Source: Apoderus coryli (taxonomy: Eukaryota > Arthropoda > Insecta > Coleoptera > Attelabidae). Taken from it: a stretch of 64,000 nucleotides of DNA. The notes beneath the pieces are model-generated. The model saw nothing but the letters and a program-made list of their open reading frames with translations, had not been told where the DNA came from and searched no databases. The DNA is taken from assembly GCA_911728435.2 (NCBI GenBank), contig OU452199.1:25244860-25308859 (forward strand), read 5' to 3'. The translations under genes were made by a program, and so were the position numbers. Shown piece after piece: positions 3,882 to 63,055 of the stretch (positions are counted from its first letter, which is position 1; each line of letters begins with the position of its first letter).

Positions 3882-3895
3882 AATAGTCTACTAAG
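3882..3895. repeat. Target-site duplication, left copy (Penelope pair)
   Basis: AATAGTCTACTAAG is repeated exactly at 9519-9532, directly bounding the Penelope-like inverted pair. A 14-bp direct repeat at both edges marks the whole pair as one insertion unit. Confidence 0.85.
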
Positions 3896-3985
3896 TATTA
3901 TGCTTTTAGTGTCCTTCGCAAATACGAATTGTTAGACTGTTTCATAGGGTAGAGGACAAAGAAAAACACCAGAACTATTCAAAAA

Positions 3986-4023
3986 TGCGACGTTTCGCAG
4001 CTATATTGCTGCTTCCTCAGGCA
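3986..4023 (-). ncRNA. Hammerhead ribozyme motif in Penelope terminus, copy 1
   Basis: Read on the minus strand: TGC, core CTGAGGA, a stem II hairpin (GCAGC / GCTGC, loop AATATA), core GAAAC, then GTC and GCA. The conserved hammerhead boxes CUGANGA and GAAA are in order and TGC/GCA can close stem I. Stem III is only AC/GU without a loop, the minimal form known from Penelope-like elements, where cleavage is thought to work best in dimers. Activity is inferred, not shown. Confidence 0.7.
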
Positions 4024-4499
4024 CTACAATGAAAATACAAAATTACACAATCTTACAACTAAGTACAGCAAAATAAAATTACTATGTTCAAATTACGACA
4101 CAAAATGAATCCATAAAAATGTAAAAAAATGTAAAAAACATCAATAACTAAAATTACCTTAGGCGTAGTCAGGTACAAAAAACAAAAAACAAACAATAAT
4201 ATTGATCTTCAATGAAACTTATCGATACGTACATACTGTGAGAATATTTCATGATCCTAACACAAATAAAATACTCATTTAAATTTTGGTATCGCATAGC
4301 AATTATACAAAAAAAAAAACGATACAAAAAACAGTTCCCTTCTATGTAAAAAAAAAAAAAAAAACCACCAAAATTGATAGATAAATCCATCAACTCAATG
4401 TGTACCGAGTGCACGCTATATATTACATGGGTTATCGTAAAAGTACCGAATAGTCAACTAACAAAAGTATGACGATAAACCACAAACATTTCCCCCGTT

Positions 4500-6821
4500 T
4501 TAAACACTCGAAACCCTATACCTTTCTATCACATTGTTATAGATATTGCTCAAGTTCTGTGTATCAGTGCGTAAATTGATTGTGTCATTCAATTGAATAT
4601 GAATCATTTCAGATATATTTCTCTTTAGCCAGTGGCTTTCCCTATCCAACACCCTCAGGTCGTCAAACAAAAAACTGTGACCAGTCTCAAAATGATGAGC
4701 GGACAGAGCGGTCTTATCCCTTTCAGTATTACTATTGCGACAGTCACTCATATGTTGGCTAACTCTCCTCTGAATGTATTGCTTCGTTTGTCCAACGTAC
4801 ATTTTACCACATTCACATGGGATTCCGTACACAACACCTGAGAGTTTATCCTTTGGAGTTTTTTCCTTTAATCTGGTATGGAAAACTCCATTTATAGTCT
4901 TTAAGTTGTAGAAAGCCAGGCTTACTGGCGTATCTCTGAAACACGCCCCAATCCTTTGTGACAAGCCCTCAATAAATGGGAATCTAAAATATCGGCGTTC
5001 AACCAAAGTACCATCCTCATTTGGGACGGACGAAGTCCTGTGAAACAGATCAATACACCTGTTGACGAAGGATCCCGGATAGTTATTCTGTTTCAAAATC
5101 TTCCTAATCACGGACAAATTGCCCTCGTGGAACGAGCAATGACTTAATTTCAAAGCCCGAAATAAGAGATTATGCACGACAGCCATTTTCTGTTTAACAG
5201 GATGGTTTGAATAATAGTTCAGGACTCTACCAGAACTAGTAGGCTTCTGATACCAATTTGTCGTCATAGAACCGTCAGGGTCCCGATTAACCATAACATC
5301 AAGAAAAGGAATACGGAAATCTTTCTCTGACTCGATAGTAAACCTCAAGCTTGGGTGATAGTCATTAAAATACTGCAACACTATCGAAAAAGAGTTCTTT
5401 GGGACTGCCAATAAAGTATCATCAACATAAATTTTAATAAACGGTATATGAAATGGAATCACTTTTAAAACGCTTTCTACTAAATCGTTCATCACCAGAC
5501 CAGCCAGTATAGGACTCGCAGGATTACCCATAGCGCTTCCATCTAACTGCAAGTATAGTAAACCTCCATAAGCAAAATAACTGGATTGAAAACAAAACTC
5601 CACAATCTCCAATAGAAGACTCTTTGAGACTGAAACATACGCAGAAATAAAACTCCATCTCTTCCTAATGATTGACAAAACCAGCTCTTTAGGTATGTTA
5701 GTAAAAAGAGAAACGACATCCAACGAAATTAACTCATAATCATCCGGTATTCTGATATCCTTAACGAAATCAACGAACTCAAAAGAATTTTTAATACTAT
5801 GAATAAACGTCGTTGTTAAAGGCGATAAAATCTCATGCAGGTATTTAGCTATATTATACGAGGGAGATCCGATGCAGCTGACAATGGGACGCAAAGCAAA
5901 CTCATTTTTATGAACTTTTCTTAATCCGTAGATTTTTGGTGGGACGGAATTGTGAAGTTTTAATAATTTAGATTTGTTTTGATCTATCTGTCCCACCTCA
6001 AGTAATTTGTCCACCAGTCTGTTCGCTTTAGTCTGAAAACTGCTTGTTGGATCACGTCTTATGCATTTATATACAAGATCATTGTTTAACATTTCTCTCA
6101 TCTTTAAATCATATTCAGATTTATACATTACCACGGTCGAATTTCCCTTATCAGACCTTGAAACCATAATATCCGGGTTATCCTTCAGAAATGAGCGCGT
6201 CTCAGTACACAGTTGGTTTAAATATTTCGCTTTGTCACCACCGACATTACGTCTATTGTAAAAGTTTTGTATTATGTTAGTTGTTCTAAGTCTAATGGCA
6301 TTCGTCTGACGATCATCAAACGACAAACCCGAAACGCACAATTCCAAGTCTTTAAGAATTGTTGGAATAGGCAAATCGGATGTATCATTCAACGGCAAAC
6401 CAAACTTGGGGCCCAAGCCCAACATAGTTCTTACACCTACAGGAATATTAACATCTGTATAATTTCTAACAAAATGTTCATGCGTTTTAATATCAAATCT
6501 AGCCTGACTCAATTTGAGAGCGTTCAATTTTTTAATATTTACTGATTTAATCCTAGAAAATTCAACATTAAATCTTCTATTATTTACATTTAGTGTGTTA
6601 AGAAAAGTTTCCGAAGGTATAAGTTCTTCAAGTTCCCTTTTAATGTTTTCAATGTTTTCAAAAATGTGTCTCACTTTCCAATGACTAATAGTAATTTCAA
6701 GGTTTAAAATACCCTTTCTAAACTTCTGAATCAAGCGATCCACCCTGTACACAAACGGATGATCATCCACCAACATGCTATAAACACATCTCAGATTATT
6801 AACAATATGATTCGGAAACAA
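4500..6821 (-). CDS. Penelope-like reverse transcriptase / GIY-YIG endonuclease (copy 1)
   Basis: An uninterrupted 773-residue frame. The Penelope-type reverse transcriptase spans roughly residues 200-560 with catalytic YVDD at 465-468; the preceding motifs SLDVVSLFTNIP and GSAMGNPASPILAG are typical of the family. The C-terminal GIY-YIG endonuclease (about 660-750) shows VVYGIPC...MYVGQTKQ followed by a conserved H and downstream E region. The enzyme would nick DNA and copy the element's RNA by target-primed reverse transcription in the nucleus. The frame stays open upstream to about 6852, where it meets copy 2, so the natural N-terminus is lost; the listed first codon is TTG and the first ATG lies about 15 codons inside. 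Domains are complete, but expression as a full protein is uncertain. Confidence 0.9.
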   Translation of the reverse strand: MFPNHIVNNLRCVYSMLVDDHPFVYRVDRLIQKFRKGILNLEITISHWKVRHIFENIENIKRELEELIPSETFLNTLNVNNRRFNVEFSRIKSVNIKKLNALKLSQARFDIKTHEHFVRNYTDVNIPVGVRTMLGLGPKFGLPLNDTSDLPIPTILKDLELCVSGLSFDDRQTNAIRLRTTNIIQNFYNRRNVGGDKAKYLNQLCTETRSFLKDNPDIMVSRSDKGNSTVVMYKSEYDLKMREMLNNDLVYKCIRRDPTSSFQTKANRLVDKLLEVGQIDQNKSKLLKLHNSVPPKIYGLRKVHKNEFALRPIVSCIGSPSYNIAKYLHEILSPLTTTFIHSIKNSFEFVDFVKDIRIPDDYELISLDVVSLFTNIPKELVLSIIRKRWSFISAYVSVSKSLLLEIVEFCFQSSYFAYGGLLYLQLDGSAMGNPASPILAGLVMNDLVESVLKVIPFHIPFIKIYVDDTLLAVPKNSFSIVLQYFNDYHPSLRFTIESEKDFRIPFLDVMVNRDPDGSMTTNWYQKPTSSGRVLNYYSNHPVKQKMAVVHNLLFRALKLSHCSFHEGNLSVIRKILKQNNYPGSFVNRCIDLFHRTSSVPNEDGTLVERRYFRFPFIEGLSQRIGACFRDTPVSLAFYNLKTINGVFHTRLKEKTPKDKLSGVVYGIPCECGKMYVGQTKQYIQRRVSQHMSDCRNSNTERDKTALSAHHFETGHSFLFDDLRVLDRESHWLKRNISEMIHIQLNDTINLRTDTQNLSNIYNNVIERYRVSSV

Positions 6822-6851
6822 ATTATGTGACCGACACTGTAGTAGAAAAAC

Positions 6852-8954
6852 CTTAACACACTAAATGTAAATAATAGAAGATTTAATGTTGAATTTTCTA
6901 GGATTAAATCAGTAAATATTAAAAAATTGAACGCTCTCAAATTGAGTCAGGCTAGATTTGATATTAAAACGCATGAACATTTTGTTAGAAATTATACAGA
7001 TGTTAATATTCCTGTAGGTGTAAGAACTATGTTGGGCTTGGGCCCCAAGTTTGGTTTGCCGTTGAATGATACATCCGATTTGCCTATTCCAACAATTCTT
7101 AAAGACTTGGAATTGTGCGTTTCGGGTTTGTCGTTTGATGATCGTCAGACGAATGCCATTAGACTTAGAACAACTAACATAATACAAAACTTTTACAATA
7201 GACGTAATGTCGGTGGTGACAAAGCGAAATATTTAAACCAACTGTGTACTGAGACGCGCTCATTTCTGAAGGATAACCCGGATATTATGGTTTCAAGGTC
7301 TGATAAGGGAAATTCGACCGTGGTAATGTATAAATCTGAATATGATTTAAAGATGAGAGAAATGTTAAACAATGATCTTGTATATAAATGCATAAGACGT
7401 GATCCAACAAGCAGTTTTCAGACTAAAGCGAACAGACTGGTGGACAAATTACTTGAGGTGGGACAGATAGATCAAAACAAATCTAAATTATTAAAACTTC
7501 ACAATTCCGTCCCACCAAAAATCTACGGATTAAGAAAAGTTCATAAAAATGAGTTTGCTTTGCGTCCCATTGTCAGCTGCATCGGATCTCCCTCGTATAA
7601 TATAGCTAAATACCTGCATGAGATTTTATCGCCTTTAACAACGACGTTTATTCATAGTATTAAAAATTCTTTTGAGTTCGTTGATTTCGTTAAGGATATC
7701 AGAATACCGGATGATTATGAGTTAATTTCGTTGGATGTCGTTTCTCTTTTTACTAACATACCTAAAGAGCTGGTTTTGTCAATCATTAGGAAGAGATGGA
7801 GTTTTATTTCTGCGTATGTTTCAGTCTCAAAGAGTCTTCTATTGGAGATTGTGGAGTTTTGTTTTCAATCCAGTTATTTTGCTTATGGAGGTTTACTATA
7901 CTTGCAGTTAGATGGAAGCGCTATGGGTAATCCTGCGAGTCCTATACTGGCTGGTCTGGTGATGAACGATTTAGTAGAAAGCGTTTTAAAAGTGATTCCA
8001 TTTCATATACCGTTTATTAAAATTTATGTTGATGATACTTTATTGGCAGTCCCAAAGAACTCTTTTTCGATAGTGTTGCAGTATTTTAATGACTATCACC
8101 CAAGCTTGAGGTTTACTATCGAGTCAGAGAAAGATTTCCGTATTCCTTTTCTTGATGTTATGGTTAATCGGGACCCTGACGGTTCTATGACGACAAATTG
8201 GTATCAGAAGCCTACTAGTTCTGGTAGAGTCCTGAACTATTATTCAAACCATCCTGTTAAACAGAAAATGGCTGTCGTGCATAATCTCTTATTTCGGGCT
8301 TTGAAATTAAGTCATTGCTCGTTCCACGAGGGCAATTTGTCCGTGATTAGGAAGATTTTGAAACAGAATAACTATCCGGGATCCTTCGTCAACAGGTGTA
8401 TTGATCTGTTTCACAGGACTTCGTCCGTCCCAAATGAGGATGGTACTTTGGTTGAACGCCGATATTTTAGATTCCCATTTATTGAGGGCTTGTCACAAAG
8501 GATTGGGGCGTGTTTCAGAGATACGCCAGTAAGCCTGGCTTTCTACAACTTAAAGACTATAAATGGAGTTTTCCATACCAGATTAAAGGAAAAAACTCCA
8601 AAGGATAAACTCTCAGGTGTTGTGTACGGAATCCCATGTGAATGTGGTAAAATGTACGTTGGACAAACGAAGCAATACATTCAGAGGAGAGTTAGCCAAC
8701 ATATGAGTGACTGTCGCAATAGTAATACTGAAAGGGATAAGACCGCTCTGTCCGCTCATCATTTTGAGACTGGTCACAGTTTTTTGTTTGACGACCTGAG
8801 GGTGTTGGATAGGGAAAGCCACTGGCTAAAGAGAAATATATCTGAAATGATTCATATTCAATTGAATGACACAATCAATTTACGCACTGATACACAGAAC
8901 TTGAGCAATATCTATAACAATGTGATAGAAAGGTATAGGGTTTCGAGTGTTTAA
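6852..8954 (+). CDS. Penelope-like reverse transcriptase / GIY-YIG endonuclease (copy 2, 5'-truncated)
   Basis: Mirror copy of the minus-strand frame, open from 6852 (sequence beginning LNTLNVNNRR) to a stop at 8954. From 6927 the 675 residues are identical to residues 99-773 of copy 1. The YVDD catalytic motif is encoded near 8025-8036 and the GIY-YIG domain near 8610-8880. About 90 N-terminal residues present in copy 1 are missing, and no start codon precedes the conserved region, so this is a 5'-truncated copy with intact catalytic domains. The 3' flank to 9518 carries a hammerhead motif. Transcription through both copies would make RNA able to fold into a very long duplex. Confidence 0.9.
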   Translation, partial: LNTLNVNNRRFNVEFSRIKSVNIKKLNALKLSQARFDIKTHEHFVRNYTDVNIPVGVRTMLGLGPKFGLPLNDTSDLPIPTILKDLELCVSGLSFDDRQTNAIRLRTTNIIQNFYNRRNVGGDKAKYLNQLCTETRSFLKDNPDIMVSRSDKGNSTVVMYKSEYDLKMREMLNNDLVYKCIRRDPTSSFQTKANRLVDKLLEVGQIDQNKSKLLKLHNSVPPKIYGLRKVHKNEFALRPIVSCIGSPSYNIAKYLHEILSPLTTTFIHSIKNSFEFVDFVKDIRIPDDYELISLDVVSLFTNIPKELVLSIIRKRWSFISAYVSVSKSLLLEIVEFCFQSSYFAYGGLLYLQLDGSAMGNPASPILAGLVMNDLVESVLKVIPFHIPFIKIYVDDTLLAVPKNSFSIVLQYFNDYHPSLRFTIESEKDFRIPFLDVMVNRDPDGSMTTNWYQKPTSSGRVLNYYSNHPVKQKMAVVHNLLFRALKLSHCSFHEGNLSVIRKILKQNNYPGSFVNRCIDLFHRTSSVPNEDGTLVERRYFRFPFIEGLSQRIGACFRDTPVSLAFYNLKTINGVFHTRLKEKTPKDKLSGVVYGIPCECGKMYVGQTKQYIQRRVSQHMSDCRNSNTERDKTALSAHHFETGHSFLFDDLRVLDRESHWLKRNISEMIHIQLNDTINLRTDTQNLSNIYNNVIERYRVSSV

Positions 8955-9425
8955 AACGGGGGAAATGTTTGTGGTTTATCGTCATACTTTTGTTAGTTGA
9001 CTATTCGGTACTTTTACGATAACCCATGTAATATATAGCGTGCACTCGGTACACATTGAGTTGATGGATTTATCTATCAATTTTGGTGGTTTTTTTTTTT
9101 TTTTTTACATAGAAGGGAACTGTTTTTTGTATCGTTTTTTTTTTTTTGTATAATTGCTATGCGATACCAAAATTTAAATGAGTATTTTATTTGTGTTAGG
9201 ATCATGAAATATTCTCACAGTATGTACGTATCGATAAGTTTCATTGAAGATCAATATTATTGTTTGTTTTTTGTACCTGACTACGCCTAAGGTAATTTTA
9301 GTTATTGATGTTTTTTACATTTTTTTACATTTTTATGGATTCATTTTGTGTCGTAATTTGAACATAGTAATTTTATTTTGCTGTACTTAGTTGTAAGATT
9401 GTGTAATTTTGTATTTTCATTGTAG

Positions 9426-9463
9426 TGCCTGAGGAAGCAGCAATATAGCTGCGAAACGTCGCA
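9426..9463 (+). ncRNA. Hammerhead ribozyme motif in Penelope terminus, copy 2
   Basis: The plus-strand equivalent of the motif at 3986-4023: TGC, CTGAGGA, stem II GCAGC-AATATA-GCTGC, GAAAC, GTC, GCA. It lies about 470 bp downstream of the stop codon and about 55 bp before the element end, in the region that forms the pseudo-LTR of tandem Penelope-like copies. Confidence 0.7.
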
Positions 9464-9518
9464 TTTTTGAATAGTTCTGGTGTTTTTCTTTGTCCTCTAC
9501 CCTATGAAACAGTCTAAC

Positions 9519-9532
9519 AATAGTCTACTAAG
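9519..9532. repeat. Target-site duplication, right copy (Penelope pair)
   Basis: Exact AATAGTCTACTAAG, matching 3882-3895, directly after the right arm of the Penelope pair. Confidence 0.85.
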
Positions 9533-20834: not shown

Positions 20835-21345
20835 TTCGCTGTTAGTGGTCGTTCTTCTGAATCATGGAGTTTCAATAGTGTATCCACGTGTAACAAATCA
20901 TATATTCATTATTTCAAAAACTTGTTGAACCTAATGGAGAATCATACATTTTCGCCACACAAAATTTTAAATGTTGACGAAGCAGGAATAACCACTCTCC
21001 ATCGACTAGAAAAAGATATGGCACCTAAAAAGGCCAAGAACAGGTGGGAGTTGTCACCAGTGGTGAATGCGGCTAAAATATCACAATATGCTGCTGCACA
21101 AGGGCTAAAGGACAGTATATTCGACCAATGTTTGTTTTTTGGGAATTCGATTGGCTTCTGGGCTTGAGAAGGATGGTTCAGTGGGTTATTTGTATCGATG
21201 CTCAAAATTGTGGTGAATGGTGCAAGATTTTTTTGTGGTATGGCTCCAAAATTTTTCTGAACATGCTAGGCCATCTTTTAATGATCATATCTTGTCAATT
21301 CTAGATAATCACAGCAGTCATATGACAGAGGATATTTGAATTTGT
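20835..21345 (+). pseudogene. pogo/Tigger-like DDE transposase fragment (decayed)
   Basis: The frame at 20922-21167 contains HKILNVDEAGITTLHRLEKD. The phrase NVDE(T/A)GI...V is the conserved block around the first catalytic Asp of pogo/CENP-B-type DDE domains. About 150 codons on, in another frame near 21290-21330, ILSILDNHSSHMTEDI supplies the second catalytic Asp (LDNHSSH). Frameshifts and a stop at 21165 make it inactive. The second half of the domain and the terminal inverted repeats were not found. It may pair with the helix-turn-helix fragment at 18.7 kb. Confidence 0.65.
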
Positions 21346-21590
21346 ATTCATTCATAAAATTATCAACGTAAAGTGTGGTCGCCAAACACATTCTTTTACA
21401 TTTCTGTACCGAGTGGGGTATTTGCCAAAGGAAGTGAAGAGTTAGGCTGTCAACTACTGACTGTTCAACACTGATGAGTCGTAGATCGACAAAACGGCCG
21501 TCTGCGAAAAGTATAGTGGTTGACAGACAAACTCTCGAGATTAAGTCTTGTTTTGGTTGCCAAACACATTATTTTACGTATAATAATTAA
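21340..21590 (+). mobile_element. Hammerhead-bearing short element (degenerate copy)
   Basis: Shares GCCAAACACATTCTTTTAC, the hammerhead and the following GACAGACAAACT...GATTAAG block with the copy at 23.2-23.4 kb. It is a partial unit with no coding capacity. Confidence 0.6.
21441..21532 (+). ncRNA. Hammerhead ribozyme, type I, degenerate
   Basis: Core CTGATGA at 21471-21477, stem II GTCG / CGAC, then AAAA where GAAA is expected, followed by ACGGCCGTC, in which AC/GT closes stem III around GGCC and GTC is the canonical cleavage triplet. A long outer stem I pairs GTTAGGCTGTCAAC (21441) with GTTGACAGACAAAC (21519). The G-to-A change at the invariant GAAA box and the mutated inner stem I predict loss of activity. 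Confidence 0.65.
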
Positions 21591-22960
21591 TTCTTAACCT
21601 TACTAGATATTTGATATACCCAATTGCAACTTAAGTTGTCACACGAATTCGATCCGCACATGCTGTTTTAACATACTAAAATATATGTTTTTAAATGCAT
21701 TAATTATTTATTCTAAAAATACATACCAGTCGAACATCCTCCTTCTTTTGAAGGCGCTGAAAAATACGATAGTTCCAATCACAAACCACTGTGCAAGTGC
21801 TTACAATCATAACTTTGAGAATTAACCTCTAAACCAATTATTCAACTATTGAGTGTATATTACTAAGACATGGGTCTCACATTCAAACAAAAGTATTATG
21901 TTTTCAGAATAATGGCCATAATGGGCACTACATATTTTTAGGACAAGTTGTCGTGCGGTTTCAAATAAGTTTTTTTTTTGGAAAGGGCCCATTCGACATA
22001 AGTCCCCGGTTTAGCCACATGGGCTTATTGTGTAATCAAATAAGTTTAAAATTATATTTAAATTTTATTTGTTCATTTATTATTTAAAAATTAATACTAA
22101 ACAATATTTTAATACTGCGATTGTGCATCTTGTCGGGCAAATAAACTAACATAAGAAGTCAGGAAATATTACCTTCAAGAACTAATAACTAATAAAATAA
22201 GTTTATTGGAAAGATAATAATATTGGAGTGATTTTTCCCAACTAATTTAAGATTGTACACAGATATCACTGCTTTATCAAAATATTTTGTCTTATTTTCC
22301 AAGTAACCTTGATTCGTACCAAGAAGCTAGAACATATATGCTAGTGTTGAAACGAAAGTCTACTACTACAGTAAGTTAATTTCTTACTAATATAACATTG
22401 TATAAAGTTTAACAATTGAGTAGTGAACATGAATATTAAATAAAATTGTAATATGCATCAATAGTTTTGAACAAATTAATGATAGTTTACATTTAATATA
22501 GGTAACTTTAAATTCAAATGCCTAACATTATGAAACAATATTGTTCAAGCTCATCATATTTATTATCAATCAAGCCTCCAGTGTGGTAATTCCATCGAAA
22601 TTTAATTAACATTGTAATTAATTTTGATTATATAATGTGGAGTCATCACCATGCAGGTACGAATCTATACCAGTAACTTATATAGCTTAAGTTTCATTTG
22701 CTTATTAATTATTATTAATGCAATGTAGTAAAACTGACTACAATTATTGGTTCCCAATTTGATTATCCCGTAAAAGAACGATGTTGCATTTCTTCGAACT
22801 GTAGTACGTATACAAGGTGGTCACGATGGACACCACGGAGTTTTATGAGAAAATTAGATTTTTTTTATTGCAGGGACATTATGTAGGTCTATTACGGTTA
22901 CATTTTTAAAATCATTTAAAATATACACGGCGCTTCAAAATAAACCGCCATATACCAAAG
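21591..22960. other. Non-coding stretch with a LINE 3' fragment
   Basis: Mostly AT-rich with no gene seen. At 21960-22035 it holds a partial copy of the LINE 3' end also present at 14700-14780. Confidence 0.45.
21960..22035 (-). repeat. LINE 3'-end fragment
   Basis: Shares CATTCGACATAAGTCCCCGG then CACATGGGCTTATTGTG with the sequence just downstream of the LINE tail at about 14700-14780 (in LINE orientation). It is a truncated insertion of the same LINE family. Confidence 0.5.
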
Positions 22961-22969
22961 TTATATAGA

Positions 22970-23420
22970 TGTAAAAGAATACGTTTGGCGACATCTACTT
23001 TCTGTTGGTAACATGCCGAGTGAACAACAATTCACTATATCGACTGCAAAATTACCTACAAATAGATGTGCTGATACGCCCTTTATCTCCCGCTAAAGGG
23101 AGTATCTCGGGATTAAGGCTTGTTTTGTTAAGCAAGCCCATTTCTAAGGGAGTATCGGCGCATCTATTTGTAGGTAATTTTGCATTATGGGGTCAGTGAC
23201 CTCCCACGCAGTCGATGTAGTGAATTGTTGTTCTTTCGCCATATTTTCAACAGAAACTAGATGTCGGCAAACACACTCTTTTACATCTCCATACCGTGTG
23301 GGTTATATATCACAGTATTTAGAGGGTTTGGCTGTCAACAACTGACCTATCACCACTGATGAGTCGTGGATCGACGAAACGGCCATCTGGTGAAAGTATA
23401 GTGGTTGACAGACAAACTAT
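22970..23420. mobile_element. Two hammerhead-element units in inverted orientation
   Basis: 22972-23104 and about 23150-23300 are reverse complements: both carry GATGTAAAAGA...GACATCTA...TTTCTGTTG, CAACAATTCACTA and AAAATTACCTACAAATAGATG. The right arm has about 30 extra bases. The hammerhead at 23326-23417 lies just outside the right arm, the same relation seen in the 54.5 kb tandem copy. No protein is encoded. Confidence 0.65.
23326..23417 (+). ncRNA. Hammerhead ribozyme, type I
   Basis: Minimal fold at 23351-23392: CACCA, core CTGATGA, stem II GTCG / CGAC, core GAAA, CGGCCATC, then TGGTG. CACCA/TGGTG forms the inner stem I. An outer stem pairs GTTTGGCTGTCAAC (23326) with GTTGACAGACAAAC (23404), 13 of 14 positions. 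One change from the ideal is A for G in the stem III closing pair (ATC instead of GTC), which should weaken cleavage. Confidence 0.75.
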
Positions 23421-24285
23421 CTCAATTAAGTTATATTTTTCACTGGAATGATCTATAATTTATTGTTGAATTAATTATGAAAAATAAGGTATACTTTTGG
23501 AAGTGTGTCCTCTACGTAAATTTGATTTTTCTTCGTTTCGAACAAAAAAAAATTAATTGTTAACTTATTTTGTCAAAACTACTTCGACATCGCAAAAACG
23601 AACTGTTCATTGATTTGTTATCCAATTTAATACATATGTGGCCAATTCAATGGTCTTTCAAAAAGTACTACGGTATCCTATACATAAACCTTCAAATTTC
23701 ATTTAACAAATTAAGAACTTAGTAACAATTTAAGTTTGTAAAACTAACAATTTTATTTAACAAATGTATTAAATCCGGTGGTGCGGGCAAGCTAAGTGTA
23801 GGTACGGAGTAAATCGATATTCCTAATTATTGATAATTTCTGGAAGATTCAGGACCAAAAAATTAATGCAAATTGCGTGGGCATATAAAATGAAGATTTG
23901 GGTGAGAAAATAGAGCTCATAGGTACAAAATTAATACATTAAATGTTATAATTATTATCTATTGTAAATAAATTCATAGTTTTTTTCACATTTTAAAGTA
24001 GAAGCATACTACCAGTAGTAGATTGAGTAAACTGAGTTGTATTTTAGCAGATTCTTATGGAGTCCTTCATAATTTCATGACCCCTGAACCCTAAAAATGA
24101 TTACAGGTCAAAAGTTAATATATCAGGTGTCCTAACGGGAAGGGTTTTAATCGATTATGGAGAAACTGCAATTTTATGTCAAAAATGATGTTTGCAGATT
24201 AAAGAATAATTACAATTTTTTATTATAATAATAATTTAATTTGTTGGGATATCCTACTAGTTGTGGACCTCCTTCAGGTGACTAT
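23421..24285. other. Non-coding stretch
   Basis: AT-rich; no gene, RNA or repeat structure recognised. Confidence 0.4.
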
Positions 24286-30488: not shown

Positions 30489-30704
30489 ATAAAATATTAA
30501 TAATATTATCTGGAAATATCGACAATGCCTCGTCCAGTATACGATACTTGTTATGTCATACCATTGAATGAATAATAGAACACCGTCAAAAAACTGTACT
30601 TTTGACTTATTTTAACTATTATTCCAAAGCGAATGTTACATATTATACAATACCTTGACAGGCCATGAAAAGTTGGCGAGCTACGCTATATATTCTATTC
30701 AGCT

Positions 30705-31000: not shown

Positions 31001-31181
31001 AATTTTAACATAGAAATATAATATACCGTATTTCTAGAAATTAACTACGTAGGTCATAAGGAATATACAATAAACACACCTTGTTATATTACATAATTTA
31101 TTCAGACTAACAGTAAATTGTATATAGCTTTGTGAAGAATGTTGCAAATTTATCTGATCTTGTTCTCGTTACTGCAAAATT

Positions 31182-36086: not shown

Positions 36087-37025
36087 ATAAGTAGTATTAA
36101 AAAAATGTCTGTCTGTCTGTCTGTCTGTATGCACGAAAACGCAAAAACCGCTCAACAGATTTTAACCAAATTTGGTACAAAAATACTATTGGACATGGCA
36201 AGGAGCTGATTAGATTTTGGGAAACATTGAGCGTAGGCAAAGGGTTTAAAAGAGGGTTCAAAAATTAAAAAAATTCATAGTTCTTAAACTTATCCGAAAT
36301 ACTGCATAATTTTTTACGCATTTAATTGAATATAACCTAAAATATTGAACATAAAATATTAGACCACATTGGCGTTCGAAAATAGTGTAAAATGGGGTAA
36401 AAAGGTTAGAAAAAAACGTATTTCTTAAAAATAGCAGAAATATTGACTAGTTATAGCTTTGATAGAATATAACCTATGAAATGTGTTACAAATAACTTGT
36501 TTTCATAGGCGTTCGTAAATAGTGTAAATGGGGTCCAAATAAAAAATATATACTCCCTAAGCTTATTCGAAATATGGAATGATTTTTCATAGTTGTAATA
36601 GAATATAACCTAAAACATGTTACATAAATAAACTGGTTCACACAGGCGTTTGAAAATAGTGTAAAAAATATAACAGAAAAATTGGCTAATTATATATAGC
36701 TTTGATATGAGATAACCTACAATATGCAGCATAACATTTTTGTTTACATAGGCCTTCGTAAATAGTAGAAAAGGAGGCAAAATAAATTTTATTATAAAAA
36801 AATCAACTATTTTTAACTTGCGTAGAAGATCTGAAATATAAAATACGTACGTATAAATAGTGCCTCTAAAGAGAAGAAAAAGGAACAAAACCCGATACTT
36901 AAAAAAATAGCTGATGTCTAAAAATATATATATAAATTTGAGATAAATGACAAAAAGGTCATAAAATTATTAGTTTTATACTTAAATAATGAGAGCTATT
37001 CGTGCCTCGAGGGCAACAGTTTATT
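36087..37025 (-). mobile_element. 1.9 kb non-coding element, copy E (internally deleted)
   Basis: Minus-strand copy starting at ATAAGTAGTATT, so it lacks the terminal 105 bp or so exactly as copy B does. It has lost several internal modules and ends CGAGGGCAACAGTTTATT next to the inverted repeat of the 37.0-50.6 kb composite. Confidence 0.7.
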
Positions 37026-37200
37026 TTAATCTAATATGTGTTAGACTATTGCATACTTAACGTAGGTATGTACTTACGCACTGTATATCATTGACATGGA
37101 CATGTTGTGGTTAGTGACATAATAGAATAACTAGATGCCAGCGTTGCAGATTGTATAACAGATTTCAAGAAAACTACTATAAATATATTTATGTATTTTA
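37022..37200 (+). repeat. Terminal inverted repeat, left, of the 13.6 kb composite
   Basis: Reverse complement of 50464-50635 at high but imperfect identity. Shared blocks are AATCTAATATGT, GTACTTACGCACTGTATATC, CATAATAGAATAACT, GCCAGCGTTGC and TTTCAAGAAAACTACTATAA. Confidence 0.75.
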
Positions 37201-37309: not shown

Positions 37310-37450
37310 CTTAAATTATACGAACTACCTACCTAACTAATTACCTATCTACCTACCTAACTAATTACCTATCTACCTACCTAACATGCAACCTAAACCA
37401 CAAGCGCACTTATCAAGCCTGCACATGGCAAGGGTTTCGCCCTTTTTAAC
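37310..37450. repeat. Telomere-like tandem array, segment 1
   Basis: Repeats of CTACCTACCTAACTAATTAC followed by the recurrent block (CATGCAACCTAAACCACAAG, CCTGCACATGGCAAGGG). Copia inserted right after it, in TTAAC. Confidence 0.7.
37446..37450. repeat. Copia target-site duplication, left
   Basis: TTAAC, repeated at 41892-41896. Five base pairs is the usual Copia duplication length. Confidence 0.85.
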
Positions 37451-37594
37451 TGTTAGCAGAGCGTGGTTGAACAACCTTATGAAGTAAAATAATATATTAA
37501 CTTTTAACAACTCTTATACGTTTTATTTATATTCTGACAACTATCACTATTTTCTTTCTATATACAATATGATGCAATATAACAACTTCCAACA
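37451..37594 (-). repeat. Copia 3' LTR
   Basis: 144 bp, identical to 41748-41891. Starts TGTTAGCAGAGCG and ends ACTTCCAACA on the plus strand. Confidence 0.95.
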
Positions 37595-37604
37595 CCCCCA
37601 CTTG
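37595..37604 (-). promoter_or_regulatory. Copia polypurine tract
   Basis: On the minus strand AAGTGGGGG directly precedes the 3' LTR; this purine run primes plus-strand DNA synthesis in LTR elements. It lies between the stop codon and the LTR. Confidence 0.8.
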
Positions 37605-40600: not shown

Positions 40601-41591
40601 AATTTTCATTTTTCAGCTGAATTTCAATATTACCATATCCAGTACAATGCATTTTCGTTCCATTAGCAATTCCGATTTCCTGATTTTTACATTCTTCAAA
40701 ATGATCTAATATGTCTTTTGATCCTGTAAAATGTGAAGTTGCTCCTGAATCTATGTACCAGCCTTGATTCTCAGTGAATTCATTGCATGTTAACGCTTGA
40801 TTTGATCGTTTGGTTTTGTCGTTACCTCGTATTGGTTTCTTAGGTTTCTGACATTCGTTGGCCTTGTGATTATATCCATTACAATTGTAACATCTAGGTC
40901 CAGATTTATTAAATTTTTGATATTTCTTACTTGCGAAAGCAATTTCAGTAGTATTTTTGCTACTTAAACCTTTTACATTTTCTTGCAGTAAAAGATTTTT
41001 AACAAAATCGGTACTAGTCGTCTGCTTTGAGCCTTGAATTCCTAATATCAAAGGTTTGTATTCATCTGGAAGACCACCAAGAATAATACCACCAACAACA
41101 TTGTCTTTAAACGGTTCACCAATATTTTCCAGTTGTTCAGCAATATGAATAATTTTATCAATATATTCTTGCATTGAGGAACAGGAATCAAAATTAGTTT
41201 TGAAAAGACTTGAATATAAACTAACTAAACTTACTATACCACTATTTTCGTAAGCTTTTTTCAGATTATCCCATGCTTCTTTGGCTGTTTTGGCTTTTTT
41301 TGTTTCTGCAGCTGCACACGGCTTTAACGATAAGTTAATTTTTGCTAAAGTTCGTTGATCTACATCTTCATCAATGTTTTGTCCGACTTTAGGTTCAATA
41401 CAGTGCCATAAACCTGCGTCTATTAAGTAGTTCTTCATCCAAAACTTCCAATCATTGTAATTTGTACCATCCAGGTGTTTATTTTCAGATAAACCTCCTA
41501 CAGCGGTTGAGATAATTGTTGTGGATTTTCGTTTATCGAGTTCCTTTCTTAAAATATCAATCTGAGCCTCCAATTCTTCGTTAGTAGACAT
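37605..41591 (-). CDS. Copia Gag-Pol polyprotein
   Basis: An uninterrupted 1328-residue frame beginning at ATG 41591. Order: Gag with one CCHC knuckle (CYNCNGYNHKANEC, from about residue 234); aspartic protease with WYIDSGATSHF (Asp near 281); integrase with an H-H-C-C zinc site (WHRRLGHL...CEACIKGK) and catalytic Asp 478, Asp 541 and Glu 577; reverse transcriptase with YVDD at 1007-1010; RNase H with CDSDWAGD, TTEAEYMAL and YCDNKGAI. Protease-integrase-RT-RNase H order is diagnostic of Copia. Gag and Pol share one frame, as in Drosophila copia. All catalytic residues are present. The protein would assemble particles in the cytoplasm, reverse transcribe the RNA and insert the DNA in the nucleus. 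Confidence 0.97.
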   Translation of the reverse strand: MSTNEELEAQIDILRKELDKRKSTTIISTAVGGLSENKHLDGTNYNDWKFWMKNYLIDAGLWHCIEPKVGQNIDEDVDQRTLAKINLSLKPCAAAETKKAKTAKEAWDNLKKAYENSGIVSLVSLYSSLFKTNFDSCSSMQEYIDKIIHIAEQLENIGEPFKDNVVGGIILGGLPDEYKPLILGIQGSKQTTSTDFVKNLLLQENVKGLSSKNTTEIAFASKKYQKFNKSGPRCYNCNGYNHKANECQKPKKPIRGNDKTKRSNQALTCNEFTENQGWYIDSGATSHFTGSKDILDHFEECKNQEIGIANGTKMHCTGYGNIEIQLKNENFITIKNVTHAPGLAMNLLSVSKITKNGRTVIFDSEFGCRITNKKIKLDTENIICTATETNGMYKLDVAELLVNTVRTLKSQEIWHRRLGHLNNVSMKLLKNKLATGISFNNDDFSKCEACIKGKIHRKPFNKASCQRAKEPLELVHSDVCGPLQAQSIGGAKYFLTFTDDFTRKTEVYFLQTKNEVTEKFMEYKAYVENETKKKIRCLHTDNGTEYVNSQLLGILKKAGIKHQKTMAYTPQQNGVAERLNRTLMETARSMLIDAELGNCFWAEAISTAVYLKNRSPTKALANCTPEEAWTGEKPNLSHLHIFGCKALVHIPKEKRRKLDRKAEEYIFVGYTEHTKGFRFIHPITRKILISRDAEFFENQSLNKNTNEEYYNNIFPVPMSENQCNDHQQQLEITETVVEVGEELPTEFETKKIIIEPVEEVFEETSNELGEVEDILKENERDENQENQIRKSNRVHVPNKNIFNSDFICQAAFESFSLDPNTMDEALLGTNASEWHKAMNEEMEAHKRNNTWEICELPSGKKPVKSKWTFKTKFTKTGEIDRYKARLVAKGYSQVSGIDYEETYSPVIRYSSIRLLLALAAKYDWEIDQMDVVTAFLHPKLDEEIYMELPDGRICRLLKTLYGLKQSSRMWNKELDSAIKELGFKQSMYDPCVYSRRKNGKDIVLAIYVDDILIFSNDIYEKNNLKMMLMKRFKMKDFGEAHYCLGMRITRDRRKKTITLDQEKYITDILTRFNMSNCNGISTPLDINQAFTKDGQPKTNAEKKEMSKFPYQEAIGCIMYAAQCTRPDIAYSVGVLSRFNQNPGKVHWAAVKRIFRYLKNTVNFKLQFNQCLEDICGYCDSDWAGDQDDRKSTAAYVFLLGGGAVSWASKKQTTVALSTTEAEYMALSFATQEAIFLKNLINEIIPDSLNFIKIYCDNKGAIDLSKNAGYRPRSKHIDIKHHFVREMQNRGEIQVQSISTKDMVADALTKGISNEKLKEICRKMGLAAT

Positions 41592-41730
41592 TATTTAATA
41601 TTTTTTTTTTTAACTTTTTTGATATATGTCAAATACTGTCAGATTTTTTCTTAAATTCAGAATTTCGGAAAAATTTACAGTTTTTGTGGATTAATTAACT
41701 TCCAATTCTTCTACTCACACTTCTAATACA

Positions 41731-41747
41731 GTTGCGGACCCATAACC
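41731..41747 (-). promoter_or_regulatory. Copia primer-binding site
   Basis: Directly inside the 5' LTR the minus strand reads GGTTATGGGTCCGCAAC. It resembles the anticodon-region complement of initiator methionine tRNA, the half-tRNA primer known for copia. The match is imperfect in the last bases. Confidence 0.65.
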
Positions 41748-41891
41748 TGTTAGCAGAGCGTGGTTGAACAACCTTATGAAGTAAAATAATATATTAACTT
41801 TTAACAACTCTTATACGTTTTATTTATATTCTGACAACTATCACTATTTTCTTTCTATATACAATATGATGCAATATAACAACTTCCAACA
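41748..41891 (-). repeat. Copia 5' LTR
   Basis: 144 bp, identical to the 3' LTR. Being the upstream LTR on the minus strand it should hold the promoter; a TATA-like TATATA lies in it. Confidence 0.95.
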
Positions 41892-53929: not shown

Positions 53930-54460
53930 GCGAACTTGATCTATTGCATACAAATGACAAAAGCACACTAACAATTAAGTGGGGAATCCCCACCGGAGAT
54001 CACTAGGAGCATACTGTTGTTGTAGACGACCAATCACAATAATCTGCACAAAAAATGTTACTGAAATATTTTTAAAAAACCCTCGATTTAAATAAAGGTG
54101 TTGTTAATATTTTACATTTAATGTAGATTTAAAGGGCTACCGCTCCAGTAATTACCAGTTTTCTGGTACTTTAAATTTTTCTTTTAATTAAGTGCCTTAT
54201 TTTTAACAAAAAACCACAAAAAAATCTTCAAAACGAGACTAAACTATAAAAATATTATAAATATTCTACTTCAAGGTGACACTTTCCCAAAAAATCTTAA
54301 AAATTCGAATATCTTGAAAAGGGTCCACTTTGGACCAGGGTACTATATAGTCAAATTGGCTTCTTATGACTCCTGCTACCACGTCCTAAAATATTCAGGT
54401 CTACTTACAAGTAACCCTGTATAATCAGATTAAGTATAAAGGATAGATATAATATTTTTG
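53930..54460. other. Non-coding stretch
   Basis: No gene recognised. AT-rich text leads into the hammerhead-bearing tandem unit. Confidence 0.4.
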
Positions 54461-54985
54461 AGAGAGAGATGTTTTTGGCGACATCTAGCGTGAACAGACA
54501 ATATGCCGAGTAAAACACAGTTCATAAACGATGGCCGGACAAGAAATAACAACTCCATTATATCCTATTGCCAACACTAGATCCGCCCGAATCCCCTAGC
54601 AGGGAGGCTTTATTTAAGATTGCTTGTTACATAAAGTAACAAGACTTTAAGTTATGTTGGAAATTTGTTTCACACTACCATGCTTTCACCAGACGACCGT
54701 TTCGTCGATCCACGACTCATCAGTGGTGATCGGCAGGCAGTGTGACCCAAATTTCCAACATTTACAAAGAGCTTATACTAGCACGAGAATTGATTGAGAG
54801 ATAGATGTTTTTGGCAACATCTAGCGTGAACAGGCAATATGCCGGGTGAAACACAGTTCACAAACGATGGCCGGACAAGAAGTAACAACTCCATTATATC
54901 CTATTGCCAACACTAGATGCGCCCGAATCCCCTAGCAGGGAGGCTTTATTTAAGAATTGCTTGTCACATAAAGTAACAAGACTTT
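54461..54985 (-). mobile_element. Retrozyme-like tandem element with hammerhead ribozyme
   Basis: A 336-bp period: GATGTTTTTGGCGACATCTA at 54468 recurs as GATGTTTTTGGCAACATCTA at 54804. The following text (CAATATGCCG, GATGGCCGGACAAGAA, CCTAGCAGGGAGGCTTTATT) is nearly identical in both units. The first unit is complete with a hammerhead on the minus strand; the second stops after about 190 bp at AGTAACAAGACTTT. It has no open frame. A short tandem unit with one hammerhead per repeat is the structure of retrozymes, non-autonomous elements that yield circular RNAs. Fragments of related units lie at 21.4 and 23.0-23.4 kb. Confidence 0.75.
54655..54760 (-). ncRNA. Hammerhead ribozyme, type I, best-formed copy
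   Basis: Minus strand, minimal fold 54687-54728: CACCA, CTGATGA, stem II GTCG / CGAC with loop TGGAT, GAAA, then CGGTCGTC and TGGTG. AC/GT closes stem III around GGTC, GTC is the canonical cleavage triplet, and CACCA/TGGTG is the inner stem I. An outer stem of about 25 positions pairs TGTTGGAAATTTG...CACACT with its complement; I count 22 matches. Every conserved hammerhead position is present, so self-cleavage is predicted after the C of GTC. Confidence 0.85.
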
Positions 54986-57534
54986 GTCTTTGATGTCATA
55001 TTTGACGATGCTTCGCCGGGTAAACTCAGCAAAATTGTCAAACAGTCGCGGTCGATCGGTATATTTCACTTCAGGCTAGTCGAAAGAATATAAGTTTAAA
55101 ATGTTACATACCTTGTCCGCTATTTATTTAAATTCCACCGTATTTTAATAAATCGCATTATTTTTAAGATAACTATAATTTATTGTATATCGCTAATGAA
55201 CTACGTGGTTAATTTCTACGGTATACATTTATAGTTTAAAATTACAGTTTTTTAGATATCAAAAAGATTTAAGTTTTTCAACTGAATCTTTGTAATAAGC
55301 ATATTTCTACTTGTCAAATTTTAAAATCTAATGAAAACTAGAGAACACATATAACAATCTGCAACTGATATTCAAATAAATTTTAGAATCTATAGATTCG
55401 TATTCGTAGCAATCAGTTTGACGATTGTTAATTCATCATCGTAGATATTATTATCAGAGGCTTCATATCCGGTATACCCCAAGTGAGTCTGTTTCCTGAA
55501 CTATAAATTATTAACAGGTTTTGTTTTTATACTGCACCAACAGTAAAAAAAATCAGATTTTATTCGTATTTATAAGCTACCTATTGTGAATAAAATAAAC
55601 GTTAATACGATTTTCGGCAAAATGCCAGATTTGAGGAAACATCCGAGAAATTCATTTATAGATAGTTATTAACTTTATTACTTGGACGGTTGCGATTTGA
55701 AACAAAAATTTAAAACAGATCAATCATTGAAATTATTAACATTTTACCACTTTTATATTCTATATCGGATTTAGTAGCAATTATTCATGGAAAGCTGACA
55801 ACGTCAGCACCTGTACAAGTTGCTGCTGAATTTTCCTTATCTCTTATCTATATAAGATTTTGCCAAATGAAGCTAGATAAACTAAGTACGAACATTATGT
55901 CACACTACTATAGGTATATTAGAGACATACACGGTGAAACATATTATAGACTTCTAATCGTTATTGAAAATCATAGCACTTTAGACATGGTCTACGATTC
56001 AATGCCGTCGGCGTCGGCACTAAATTTTAACTTGACCTCTACTGTCCTGTCTCCTGGTAGAAAAAATGGTTCATATAATATAAAAAATTTCTGGTTTAGT
56101 GATGTTTCGGGAAAAAAACAGCCTGGTACTGGTGCTGCAGGTTATTAAACAAGGCGCAGAACGTATTTTCTGATAGCCATAGAGTTAGAAATATGATATT
56201 CGCAACCATCGCCCTACCAGTCTACCTTACAAAATTGTGAAAGTATTATTATTATCATATAAGCTATGGACGCAAGTTAAGTCATTTGATTAAGCACATC
56301 TTTAGCTGAAATTATAAATAAACTATCTACTGTCATATAATTAAAGTGAATTTTATTTACATTTTTTGTTTTGATATCGTTAATGAGTATTGTTTGGCAA
56401 ATTGATCTGTAACAGCGCGGCGTCGGTAAGGGGAATGCAGTTGCAATAAAACATGGCTGATTTCATTCATAAAATTTCCAGCGGCGTGCATTGCACAAGT
56501 TTAGTAATAATTAATAAACATTTATGTGTTACTAAAAAATTTAAATTAATGAAAAGTTTGGTAAAAGCACCTACTGCTATTAAGCTATCACACCCAAGGA
56601 GTATTTTATTTATTTATTTATTTAATTATATATTTTATTTCAAATATGTACTAAAGTTTGCATACCAAAAATTAAAATAAACCGTTCTTATATCTTTTTG
56701 TTGCTTTAAGTCACGTTTAGAAACTATAATTAACTGTTTTAAATATTTCGATTAAATATAACGATCATAATTAGTATTACTTTATAGAAGGTGGCAATCT
56801 GTTAGATTTCGTCAACTTGAGTATCATCATTATCATCAGTCTCGCTGTCGTCATCTTGTCCTAAAGTTATTATAATGTGCTCAATTTCCTCCAAAATTCT
56901 TCTTCCAACTCCTTAACATGTCTGCAAAATCTGCAAAAACTATTCCAATCATTACTGGATATTAAAAACTTCTTTTAATGTAACTAGGTTGAAATTTCCG
57001 GTTGTATTGCCGGTTCTCATATATTTAATTTAAGTTTTGCGTAAGTTAACTCTATTGGGTTTAACTCGCACATATACGGAGGCGTTCTAAAAGATTTTTT
57101 TTTAAATCGAACTACCCTGATTTTTTTAGCCATTAAAATTGCATATTTTTGTTCCTTTTAAATGATATACGATAGTTTTAGTTTTAGAAATATCAAAAAT
57201 CGAGAACGGTATTGAAAAATTTATTGTTTCGAGGATTTTTGGACACTCTTTAATTTTGGTAGAGTGTTAACTTCTGTCACGATTATGTTGTTAATCTTTA
57301 AAATACCAAAATTCTAAGTAGATTCAATAAAAATTTCCAGTTTTGATGCCTTAATAAACAACAAAAAATATGTAAGCTTATATTTCTAGATGAACAAAAA
57401 AAAAATTGTTTTGAACCTAAAACACTAAAGTAACAGAACACTAAATATACAATAATCATTTGATATAATATTTGATAATATTGCAACTCATACACGACAA
57501 CAAAAGTATAAATAATAACACCATTTTATTATTA
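54986..57534. other. Non-coding stretch
   Basis: Contains the inverted copy of a dispersed repeat at 55290-55515. Open frames at 55867-56148 (93 residues, ending KKQPGTGAAGY) and 56453-56680 resemble no family I know and are probably chance. Nothing else was recognised. Confidence 0.45.
55290..55515 (-). repeat. Dispersed repeat, inverted copy of 30.7-31.0 kb
   Basis: Reverse-complement matches to 30705-31000, including GTTAATTCATCATCGTAG and TCTATAGATTCGTAT, with moderate divergence. Confidence 0.6.
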
Positions 57535-58214
57535 TATATTATATTATATTATATTATATTATATTATATTATATTATATTATATTATATTATATTATATT
57601 ATATTATATTATATTATATTATATTATATTATATTATATTATATTATATTATATTATATTATATTATATTATATTATATTATATTATATTATATTATATT
57701 ATATTATATTATATTATATTATATTATATTATATTATATTATATTATATTATATTATATTATATTATATTATATTATATTATATTATATTATATTATATT
57801 ATATTATATTATATTATATTATATTATATTATATTATATTATATTATATTATATTATATTATATTATATTATATTATATTATATTATATTATATTATATT
57901 ATATTATATTATATTATATTATATTATATTATATTATATTATATTATATTATATTATATTATATTATATTATATTATATTATATTATATTATATTATATT
58001 ATATTATATTATATTATATTATATTATATTATATTATATTATATTATATTATATTATATTATATTATATTATATTATATTATATTATATTATATTATATT
58101 ATATTATATTATATTATATTATATTATATTATATTATATTATATTATATTATATTATATTATATTATATTATATTATATTATATTATATTATATTGTATT
58201 ATATTATATTATAT
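57535..58214 (+). repeat. (ATATT)n microsatellite, about 680 bp
   Basis: About 136 uninterrupted ATATT units with a single A-to-G change at about 58196. The 285-residue open frame across it (repeating LYYII) is an artefact of the five-base period. Such length and purity imply recent expansion or an assembler-generated run. Confidence 0.97.
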
Positions 58215-59154
58215 AATACTTTATACTTTATTGACTTTTCATATATATATCCTGCTATCAATGCTACGTCCGTATTACGCCCTTTTACGGTTAATATTGC
58301 GTCCAAAGAATTGCTGCGTCCGTATATAGGACGCACTAAAGTCACGGCCTTATATCTTCGCTCTGTGAGCAGATACGACTACGATTTTTAGATGGACTCG
58401 TCGGATTGCTACTCAGCTTGAATATATTTGATATTACATTTTCCGGTAGATCTGCAGAAGACTGTAAAATTGGAACAAAAAGGGACGCAGCATCATACAA
58501 AAATTCCTATGAAGGTTCAGCGTGTTGCCGTAGAGGGCTCTGATGTTATATACATTTAAAGAATTATATATGGGAAAGTATACATTAGTGCGTCCCTGAT
58601 GTGGCAACATTGTTTGCTTATTTTCTTTTGACCCTTTTGCATTTTAACATTTATTTCATTCGAACAAGTTTGATATGATATTTACATTATTTACTAGTAT
58701 TTTTTAGGGGAATCGTGTTAGACAGACAAAAAAAAATTTATTTTGATATTGATTAGGAAGGATTAATTAAATATAAGTGTTTTACAAAATATAAAACCCA
58801 ATCAAGATTTCTGTTCAAATATAAAAAACATAAACTGGCACGACATTCTTTCACATAACAATATTAACACCAAAACTGAAATGTTTATACAAACCAAAAA
58901 TGACAACATAAACCGAGCTACTTCAGAAATTAAAATAAAACTAAAACCTTGGATTACATCTAAAATTATTGAATTAATAGGAAAGCGGTGATAAATGTTC
59001 TTTCGTGTCCTTTTTGAGATCAAGACAGGCTAGTATTTTCGATTACTCACTGAACCAAACAACCCTTAAATAACTAAACTAGATATGGGAGTTGCTTGAT
59101 AATGGTTGGATTTTTGTATTCCACATATAACATAATTGAATTAAGCTGGTCACG
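58215..59154. other. Non-coding stretch with GCGTCC-rich segment
   Basis: 58250-58345 is relatively GC-rich and repeats GCGTCC/ACGTCC, including a perfect 7-bp stem TGCGTCC-GTATATA-GGACGCA. Similar GGACGCAG strings recur near 58490, 58590, 63195 and 63280, so they may mark edges of one repeat family around the LINE and satellite block. No gene is seen. Confidence 0.4.
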
Positions 59155-61389: not shown

Positions 61390-61585
61390 CCTGTCAATTT
61401 CCGTCACGTTTGGCTTTATTAAAAAGCCAACGGACCTCAAGCCTGACTTTTGACAGTTTGTCATTCCACAAAGGAGCGTCCTTACTTGTTGTAACAGCTT
61501 GCAGTGTGAGTGGGCAATTGGAGTCAAAAGCTTCCATTATTGCTTCACTGAATTGGTTTACTCTCCACTCAATAACGTGGTTAGC
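61390..61585 (-). pseudogene. LINE endonuclease-RT linker fragment
   Basis: The minus strand reads VNQFSEAIMEAFDSNCPLTL and APLWNDKLSKVRLEVRWLF then NKAKRDG. The pattern W-(W/N)-x-x-x-L...L-R-x-x-x-R...A is the linker between endonuclease and polymerase in I/Jockey LINEs. It is a third piece of the rearranged LINE at 59.7-61.0 kb. The start of the open frame, near 61590-61650, runs into satellite sequence. Confidence 0.6.
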
Positions 61586-63055
61586 TAAACCTAACCTAAA
61601 AATTTTTAATTGGATGCAAGACTGTATGGAGGTGGAACATGCTAAATGCACACCAAACTCAAATTTGAATGTATAGTAGGGATAGTTGCAATTTAATAAA
61701 AAAAAAACTTGATAAAAAAAACTATTCTATTAGAACGGATGCAGTATCATATGTAGAATATTTTATGTTGGTTATAGTATACAATATATCTAACAAATGG
61801 ATGCAACAAAGTATGCAAATAATTAAATAACTCTAACCCAAGCTAAACCCAACCTAAGAATTTTTATTTGACGCAAGAGTGTATGCAGGTGGAACATGTT
61901 AAAGGCAGACTAATCGCAAATTTCAAAGTATGGTAGGGATTGTTGTAGTTTAGTAAGTACAAAATTGATAAAAAACTATTCTATTTTTAGAACGGATGCA
62001 GTATTATATGTAGAAAATGTTATGTTGGTTATAGTATACACTATATATAACAAATGGATGCAGCAAAGTATGCAAATAATTAAATAAGTCTAACCCAAGC
62101 TAAACCTAACCTAAGAATTTTTAATTGGACGCAAGAGTGTATGGAGGTGGCACATGTTAAATTGACACCACACTCAAATTTAAATGTATAGTAGGGATTG
62201 TTGCAGTTTAATAAGAAATAACTTGATAAAAAAACTATTCAATTAGAACGGATGCAGTGTCATATGTAGAATATTTTATGTTCGTTATAGTATACAATAT
62301 ATCTAACAAATGGATGCAACAAAGTATGCAAACAATTAAATAACTCTAACCCAAGCTAAACCCAACCTAAGAATTTTTTATTTATTTATGCAATCAGAGC
62401 ATGTTAAATGCAGAGTAATTGCAAATTTAAAAGTATAATAAGAAAAAACTTGTTGAAAAAACTATTCTATTTTTAGAACGGATGCAGTATTATATGTAGA
62501 ATATGTTATGTTGGTTATAGTATACAGTATATATAACAAATGGATGCAGCAAAGTATGCAAATATTTAAATAACTCTAACCCAAGCTAAACCTAACCTAA
62601 GAATTTTTAATTGCTGCAGTTTAGTAACAACAAAAATGATATAAAAACTATTCTATTTTTAGAACGGATACAGTATTATATGTAGAATATGATATTTTGG
62701 TTATAGTATACTATATGTCTACCGAAAAGACGCAGCAAAGTATGCCTATAATTAAATAACTTTAACCCATGCTAAACCTAATCTATCAATTTTTATTTGG
62801 ACGCAAGAGTGTATGTAGCTGGAGCATGCTAAATACAACTAATTTCAAATTTAAAAGTATAGTAGGGATTGTTGCTGTTTAATAAAAAAACCCTTATAAA
62901 AACTATTCTATTTTTAGAACGGATGTAGTATTATATGTTATATGTTATGTTGGTTATAATATATAATATATTTAACAAATTGATGCAGCAAAGTATGTAA
63001 GTAAATAATTGGATGAGGCTAACCTAGACTAAACATAACCTCAATTTAAATATAT
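61586..63055 (+). repeat. Satellite array, unit about 258 bp
   Basis: The landmark GCAAGAxTGTATGxAGGTGG recurs at 61616, 61873 and 62131, with a diverged form near 62390 and again at 62803; spacings are 257-259 bp except where a unit is deleted. Each unit holds GAACGGATGCAGTAT, GTTATAGTATACAATATAT and CTAACCCAAGCTAAACC. About six units are seen, more decayed toward the right. No coding capacity and no hammerhead were found in it. Confidence 0.85.

Follow-up and report, generated by a model that had tools for sequence, protein, structure and literature searches.

We consider it probable (roughly 0.65) that the 336-bp tandem element found in the window, a 64,000-nucleotide stretch of the Apoderus coryli genome, is a non-autonomous, non-coding metazoan non-LTR retrozyme that is moved by a Penelope-like element (PLE), with both target strands primed on self-cleaved and probably circular RNA. 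The family is built of tandem units, its arrays take a mirror form with near-identical arms, their outer edges pair two start sites (S1 and S2), target duplications flank them, and the insertion footprint resembles that of a PLE. From these features we infer cleavage of the RNA, an RNA circle, and the mobilising enzyme. The mirror arrays, the paired start sites, and the target duplications are the most informative part of the analysis and were absent from the first-pass annotation of this DNA, as were two relatives of the element in the same window (copies B and C).

The array described in the first-pass annotation, here called copy A (Table 1), contains 1.57 units of 336 bp, in agreement with the 1.6 units and the lack of an open frame reported there. 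The two ATG/GTG/TTG frames of at least 40 amino acids that overlap it encode 42 and 47 amino acids, the latter being the longest frame listed, and we regard copy A as non-coding. One pair of direct repeats (54458-54619 and 54794-54955; 95% identity, spacing 336) is followed by a second (54619-54648 and 54956-54985; 97%, spacing 337), and the GC content of the retrozyme is 0.42, i.e., below 50%. Copy A is not mirrored, does not have two classified edges, and lacks a 12-bp duplication; a search for a target duplication around it gave 6 bp at most, which is within chance.

Table 1. Coordinates of the retrozyme copies, their hammerhead and start-site features, and the PLE pair in the window.
Feature	Position	Strand	Remarks
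Retrozyme copy A	54458..54985	- (strand of ribozyme RNA)	one full 336-bp unit plus 192 bp
First copy of repeated part, copy A	54458..54648	-	94.8% to 54794-54985 (BLAST)
Second copy of repeated part, copy A	54794..54985	-	right array end, without recognised start site
Left edge of copy A	54456..54458	.	at family start site S2 (RNA ...CUCUCUCAA)
Start site S1 position inside copy A	54611..54614; again near 54947-54950	.	S1 edges at unit ~150-157 in other loci
Type I hammerhead core	54686..54729	-	RF00163, 31.2 bits
Long stem I enclosing core	54654..54761; arms 54724-54761 and 54654-54691	-	inverted repeat and fold
Retrozyme copy B, mirror form	22967..23427	+	inverted part 22967-23084, then one unit; core at 23356
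9-bp direct repeat AAGTTATAT flanking copy B	left 22958..22966, right 23428-23436	.	sequence match
Retrozyme copy C, shorter	21337..21554	+	core at 21471, GAA to AAA
PLE, left copy of mirrored pair	3928..6602	-	99.66% to 6852-9521; ORF 4500-6860
PLE, right copy of mirrored pair	6852..9521	+	ORF 6846-8954
14-bp target duplication AATAGTCTACTAAG of PLE pair	left 3882..3895, right 9519-9532	.	sequence match
Minimal hammerhead-like motif in PLE	9429..9456; other copy from 4020	+; -	regular-expression match, read by eye

The annotated type I hammerhead on the minus strand, with intact CTGATGA, GAAA, and GTC, a loop-closed stem III, and a long stem I, was borne out. It is the sole hammerhead of copy A and sits between the two repeated parts, where CTGATGA (54723-54717) is followed by a 4-bp stem II with a 5-nt loop, GAAA, a 2-bp stem III closed by GGTC, and then GTC, with the cleavage site predicted between 54692 and 54691. 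The suggested covariance-model check came out only partly in its favor: the RF00163 model matches copy A at 31.2 bits, with an E value of 1e-5 for the 701 bases searched and 9e-4 for the whole window, but this is below the curated gathering score of 34, so that a default Rfam scan of the window lists nothing. The hammerhead of the family mostly scores below this threshold, which was passed by 1 of 20 family loci. An exact search with the 25-base core pattern in the genome-contig and viral-contig collections returned 0 and 0 matches.

The stem I of copy A is a 38-nt inverted repeat with 79% complementarity, and its fold has a z score of -9.2, with none of 200 shuffles equally stable. In the minimum-energy fold, computed with a model that has no tertiary contacts, the core is paired otherwise, 6.7 kcal/mol below the hammerhead-constrained fold. 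Among copies A, B, and C, 6 of the 32 pairs of the hammerhead structure, all of them in stem I, are changed on both sides yet still paired; with these three sequences compared, none of 500 shuffles reached this number and slid controls gave 0 to 2, and a further measure of covariation ("further pair types"), again from three sequences, was reached by 55 of 500 shuffles.

Copy B has a C-A mismatch in stem III of its hammerhead core and lies between the two copies of a 9-bp direct repeat, a length that 11 of 400 random stretch pairs also reach. A segment resembling the copy B unit occurs past the array of another locus (L032:3154-3193), which may be a junction or a nesting of two subfamilies. 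The window also contains other repeats. A copia element (37450-41891) with a 1,329-amino-acid frame has identical 145-bp flanking repeats (37450-37594 and 41747-41891) and is therefore probably a recent insertion; several related AT-rich repeats, both direct and inverted and including 140-bp and 282-bp tandem units, occupy 25574-37026; ATTAT is repeated 139 times at 57523-58218; and tandem arrays with a 257-bp unit and a 186-bp unit lie at 61583-62799.

To describe the family, we searched the 428-Mb genome with the 1.57-unit copy A and scored 40 of 2,851 first-look candidates, the latter figure being unverified as a copy number; the 40 gave 157 matches. The analysis covers every one of these 40, namely, 39 fetched loci and the copy A locus. 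Having been chosen as the best matches to a query of 1.57 units, they form a sample that favors young, multiunit copies. The 39 fetched loci hold 102 full units, 87 of which are 336 or 337 bp long, and the hammerhead core is intact in 94 of the 102; arms reach 10.4 units in the longest of the 40 loci. The expectation of the first-pass annotation that genome copies would be tandem and would keep the core is thus supported. The commonest stem III of the family is ACGGCCGT, and that of copy A is ACGGTCGT. We tried to read selection on the core from its variation and rejected this: the catalytic positions are less variable (0.004) than the remaining ones (0.028), but the 32-nt core as a whole is more variable than 77 of the 337 windows.

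The same annotation had held that the element could make a circular RNA of about 336 nt, and for copy A this is not supported. With its single hammerhead core, the transcript of copy A would be cut once and would yield by itself neither a unit-length RNA nor a 336-nt circle. In contrast, 30 of the 40 loci (the best 40 of 2,851 candidates) carry at least two intact cores on one strand and, judging from their sequence, could release a unit-length circle.

Mirror-image arrays were found at 31 of the 40 loci (again the best 40 of 2,851), all with plus units first and minus units last; the reverse order, minus then plus, occurred at none of the 40. The nine nonmirrored loci comprise seven with plus units only, copy A included, and two with minus units only. 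Within a locus, unit identity is 99.91% between opposite arms (72 comparisons at 7 loci) and 99.65% within one arm (127 comparisons), compared with 97.0% for units from different loci (4,952 comparisons). This near-identity of opposite arms suggests that the two were copied from a single RNA or from nearly identical ones.

The outer edges of the arrays form two clusters on the RNA, S1, which follows ...CAAUUCUUAA, and S2, which follows ...CUCUCUCAA. Both edges could be classified at 29 of the 40 loci, the other 11 being left out of this count, and 28 of the 29 have one S1 and one S2 edge, one (L040) has S2 at both edges, and none has S1 twice (P = 5e-8 against independent pairing, 29 loci). 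S1 is on the left in 12 of these 28 loci and on the right in 16. The edge rules were fixed after inspection of the first 20 loci, 11 of which have the S1 and S2 pair, and the later 19 loci gave 17 pairs and 2 loci with one classified edge. BLAST pieces that had less than 80% identity and lay outside the main cluster were dropped before edges were counted; this filter split locus L049, whose left edge lies at S2 and whose duplication is 10 bp long but which was counted as unclassified, and the short arms of L039 and L047 were entered as S2. In the predicted circular fold of the consensus, S1 and S2 are among the least-paired stretches, ranking 25 and 7, respectively, of 337 windows of 20 nt.

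Target duplications of 12 to 16 bp flank 25 of the 40 loci (12, 13, 14, and 16 bp in 10, 10, 4, and 1 loci, respectively), with no duplication of at least 12 bp in the remaining 15; in a control with mismatched edge pairs, 12 bp was reached in 1 of 1,560. The duplications span the whole mirror array in 24 of the 28 S1/S2 loci. The inner cDNA ends are scattered, with 8 of 68 within 6 nt of the cleavage site, compared with 2.6 expected. We rejected these ends as a trace of cleavage in vivo, as the P value of 0.005 at that place becomes 0.14 when the unit is scanned.

The same window carries a mirrored pair of PLE copies with a tail on the left edge of the pair and none on the right. Their proteins match GIY-YIG above and RVT_1 below the Pfam cutoff and have at least 120 relatives at 34 to 53% identity, the organisms named among the relatives listed being insects. 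Near the 3' end of each copy is a hammerhead-like motif of the form CTGAGGA-stem-GAAACGTC, which had no Rfam match in the window scan and resembles the minimal PLE hammerheads described in the accessible part of PMC7761336. A genome search with the PLE 3' region gave 41 hits at 25 loci (best 40 of 224 candidates), and 13 of the 25 have hits on both strands with the 3' ends outward in each, like the retrozyme. Edge counts cover these 13 mirrored loci and leave out 10 single-hit and 2 tandem-only loci. All 13 have one short and one tailed edge, the short edge ending within a few nucleotides of ...CTAACAAT (CTAATAAT in older copies) and the other continuing into a tail of ~28 to 40 nt. Duplications are 12 to 14 bp at 12 of the 13 and 9 bp at the remaining one, and their A+T content (0.88; n = 11 of the 13 loci) is close to that of the retrozyme duplications (0.89; n = 25). 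Within the window, the retrozyme units and the PLE have no sequence similarity. It is the insertion footprint, shared between the retrozyme and this PLE, that points to the mobilising enzyme.

We propose that tandem arrays would be transcribed in the hammerhead sense and that type I hammerheads would cut the transcript, freeing units of 336 to 337 nt. The long stem I may then hold the two ends of a cleaved unit together for ligation, and the circle would probably be closed by a host ligase. A PLE reverse transcriptase with a GIY-YIG endonuclease would cut both strands of an AT-rich target 12 to 14 bp apart, and both target ends would prime at internal RNA sites, S1 serving one strand and S2 its partner. 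The enzyme could round the template several times, and the joining of two concatemeric cDNAs would leave a mirror-image tandem array between target duplications. A circle would explain arms of up to 10.4 units, for which linear multimers are an alternative.

In the linear alternative, which we regard as unlikely though it is not to be dismissed lightly, a PLE primes both strands on linear multimeric array transcripts and the hammerhead trims these or is incidental. Source arrays are homogeneous, with 99.65% identity between units of one arm, so that their transcripts would likewise supply units that match one another. Mutation of the hammerhead in the Anolis PLE RNA did not prevent its insertion in vitro (PMC11167929), and the slight surplus of cDNA ends close to the predicted cut (8 of 68) would fit run-off on linear RNA. 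On the other hand, the intact cores in 94 of 102 units would cut long multimers, and published animal retrozymes accumulate as circles according to the accessible text of PMC7229834. A self-priming model, in which a single cDNA primed at the target turns back and serves as its own template to give the inverted arm, has been proposed for the inverted ends of rotifer Penelope elements (accessible part of PMC3846280); such a fold-back does not predict that the far edge begins at another RNA site, whereas one edge of each kind is present at 28 of 29 retrozyme loci and at all 13 mirrored PLE loci, and we therefore consider it improbable here.

Mobilization by LINE machinery with twin priming seems less probable still. 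LINE-like reverse transcriptase frames are present in the window and LINEs are named as possible mobilisers in the accessible text of PMC7229834, but the one LINE of the window taken as a control, the only LINE examined, occurs on both strands at 1 of 38 loci. Least credible to us is an origin of the arrays and mirrors after insertion, by unequal crossing-over, inverted duplication, or gene conversion, or as assembly artefacts. The tandem arrays are indeed satellite-like, and conversion could give identical arms; against this, the complete array lies between duplications at 24 of the 28 loci with an S1/S2 pair, its two edges are unlike each other, and at the 20 loci whose flanking sequence was read, the left and right flanks are not mirror images.

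Priming by a PLE on circular retrozyme RNA may also have a wider meaning. We advance tentatively, at somewhat less than even odds, that animal retrozymes are PLE parasites whose insertion is a twin-primed rolling-circle event, in which each cut target strand primes at its own dedicated site on a single circular RNA, thereby giving mirror arrays. The same rule would explain the optional PLE tail, so that PLE integration in general would be a two-strand, two-site reaction.

By its hammerhead type, unit size, tandem form, lack of coding capacity, duplications, and company of PLEs, all read from the sequence, the family is a metazoan non-LTR retrozyme, and the retrozyme assignment of the first-pass annotation fits this class. 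Its members, as described in the accessible text of PMC7229834, share with the present family a type I hammerhead, non-coding tandem units of 170 to 400 nt, GC below 50%, duplications of more than 4 bp, and the company of PLEs. Insects are already named there among the hosts (Cervera and de la Pena 2020), and PLE mobilization was proposed from shared hammerheads and co-occurrence. Within the accessible text of that source, mirror arrays and two paired start sites are features described only for the present family, and the words inverted, head-to-head, mirror, orientation, and opposite are absent. We found no report of retrozyme mirror arrays with paired start sites, including in the accessible parts of PMC7229834, PMC11722881, PMC6431247, and PMC8969392, in a literature coverage mostly without subscription journals that leaves novelty unproven.

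Among other hammerhead elements, the pDo500 satellite of Dolichopoda cave crickets is likewise an insect tandem repeat with a type I hammerhead, for which an extended stem I has been suggested; compared by description in the accessible part of PMC2837043, its unit is ~500 bp rather than 336 bp. Plant LTR retrozymes (accessible parts of PMC7229834 and PMC7761336) are also non-autonomous and have a hammerhead and a circular RNA, the latter probable in the present family, but they carry type III hammerheads in their LTRs and have ~700-bp units and 4-bp duplications. The type I hammerhead and the 12- to 16-bp duplications do not fit a plant-type LTR retrozyme.

The closest parallels in insertion are the PLEs with inverted ends and a tail (PMC11167929 and the accessible part of PMC3846280), which share with the retrozyme mirror insertion, outward 3' ends, two start sites, short duplications, and AT-rich targets. 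The rotifer Penelope elements have inverted ends with a tail on one and 9- to 10-bp duplications, a pattern read in the accessible text as self-priming (PMC3846280). With the purified Anolis PLE, both strands of the target are cleaved and extended, and synthesis begins at two internal sites, one at either end of the tail; in vitro, hammerhead cleavage was not needed and the strands did not differ in start site (PMC11167929). The retrozyme can likewise have S1 on the left or on the right (12 and 16 loci), but each of these insertions has one S1 and one S2 edge. It differs from the PLE of the window in having no ORF and no sequence match to it, and its start sites are more than 150 nt apart on the unit, compared with ~28 to 40 nt in that PLE. 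A footprint common to the retrozyme and the PLE of one genome names two RNA sites and one enzyme as candidates, and the PLE tail would gain a simple meaning, with one strand starting before the tail and the other after it.
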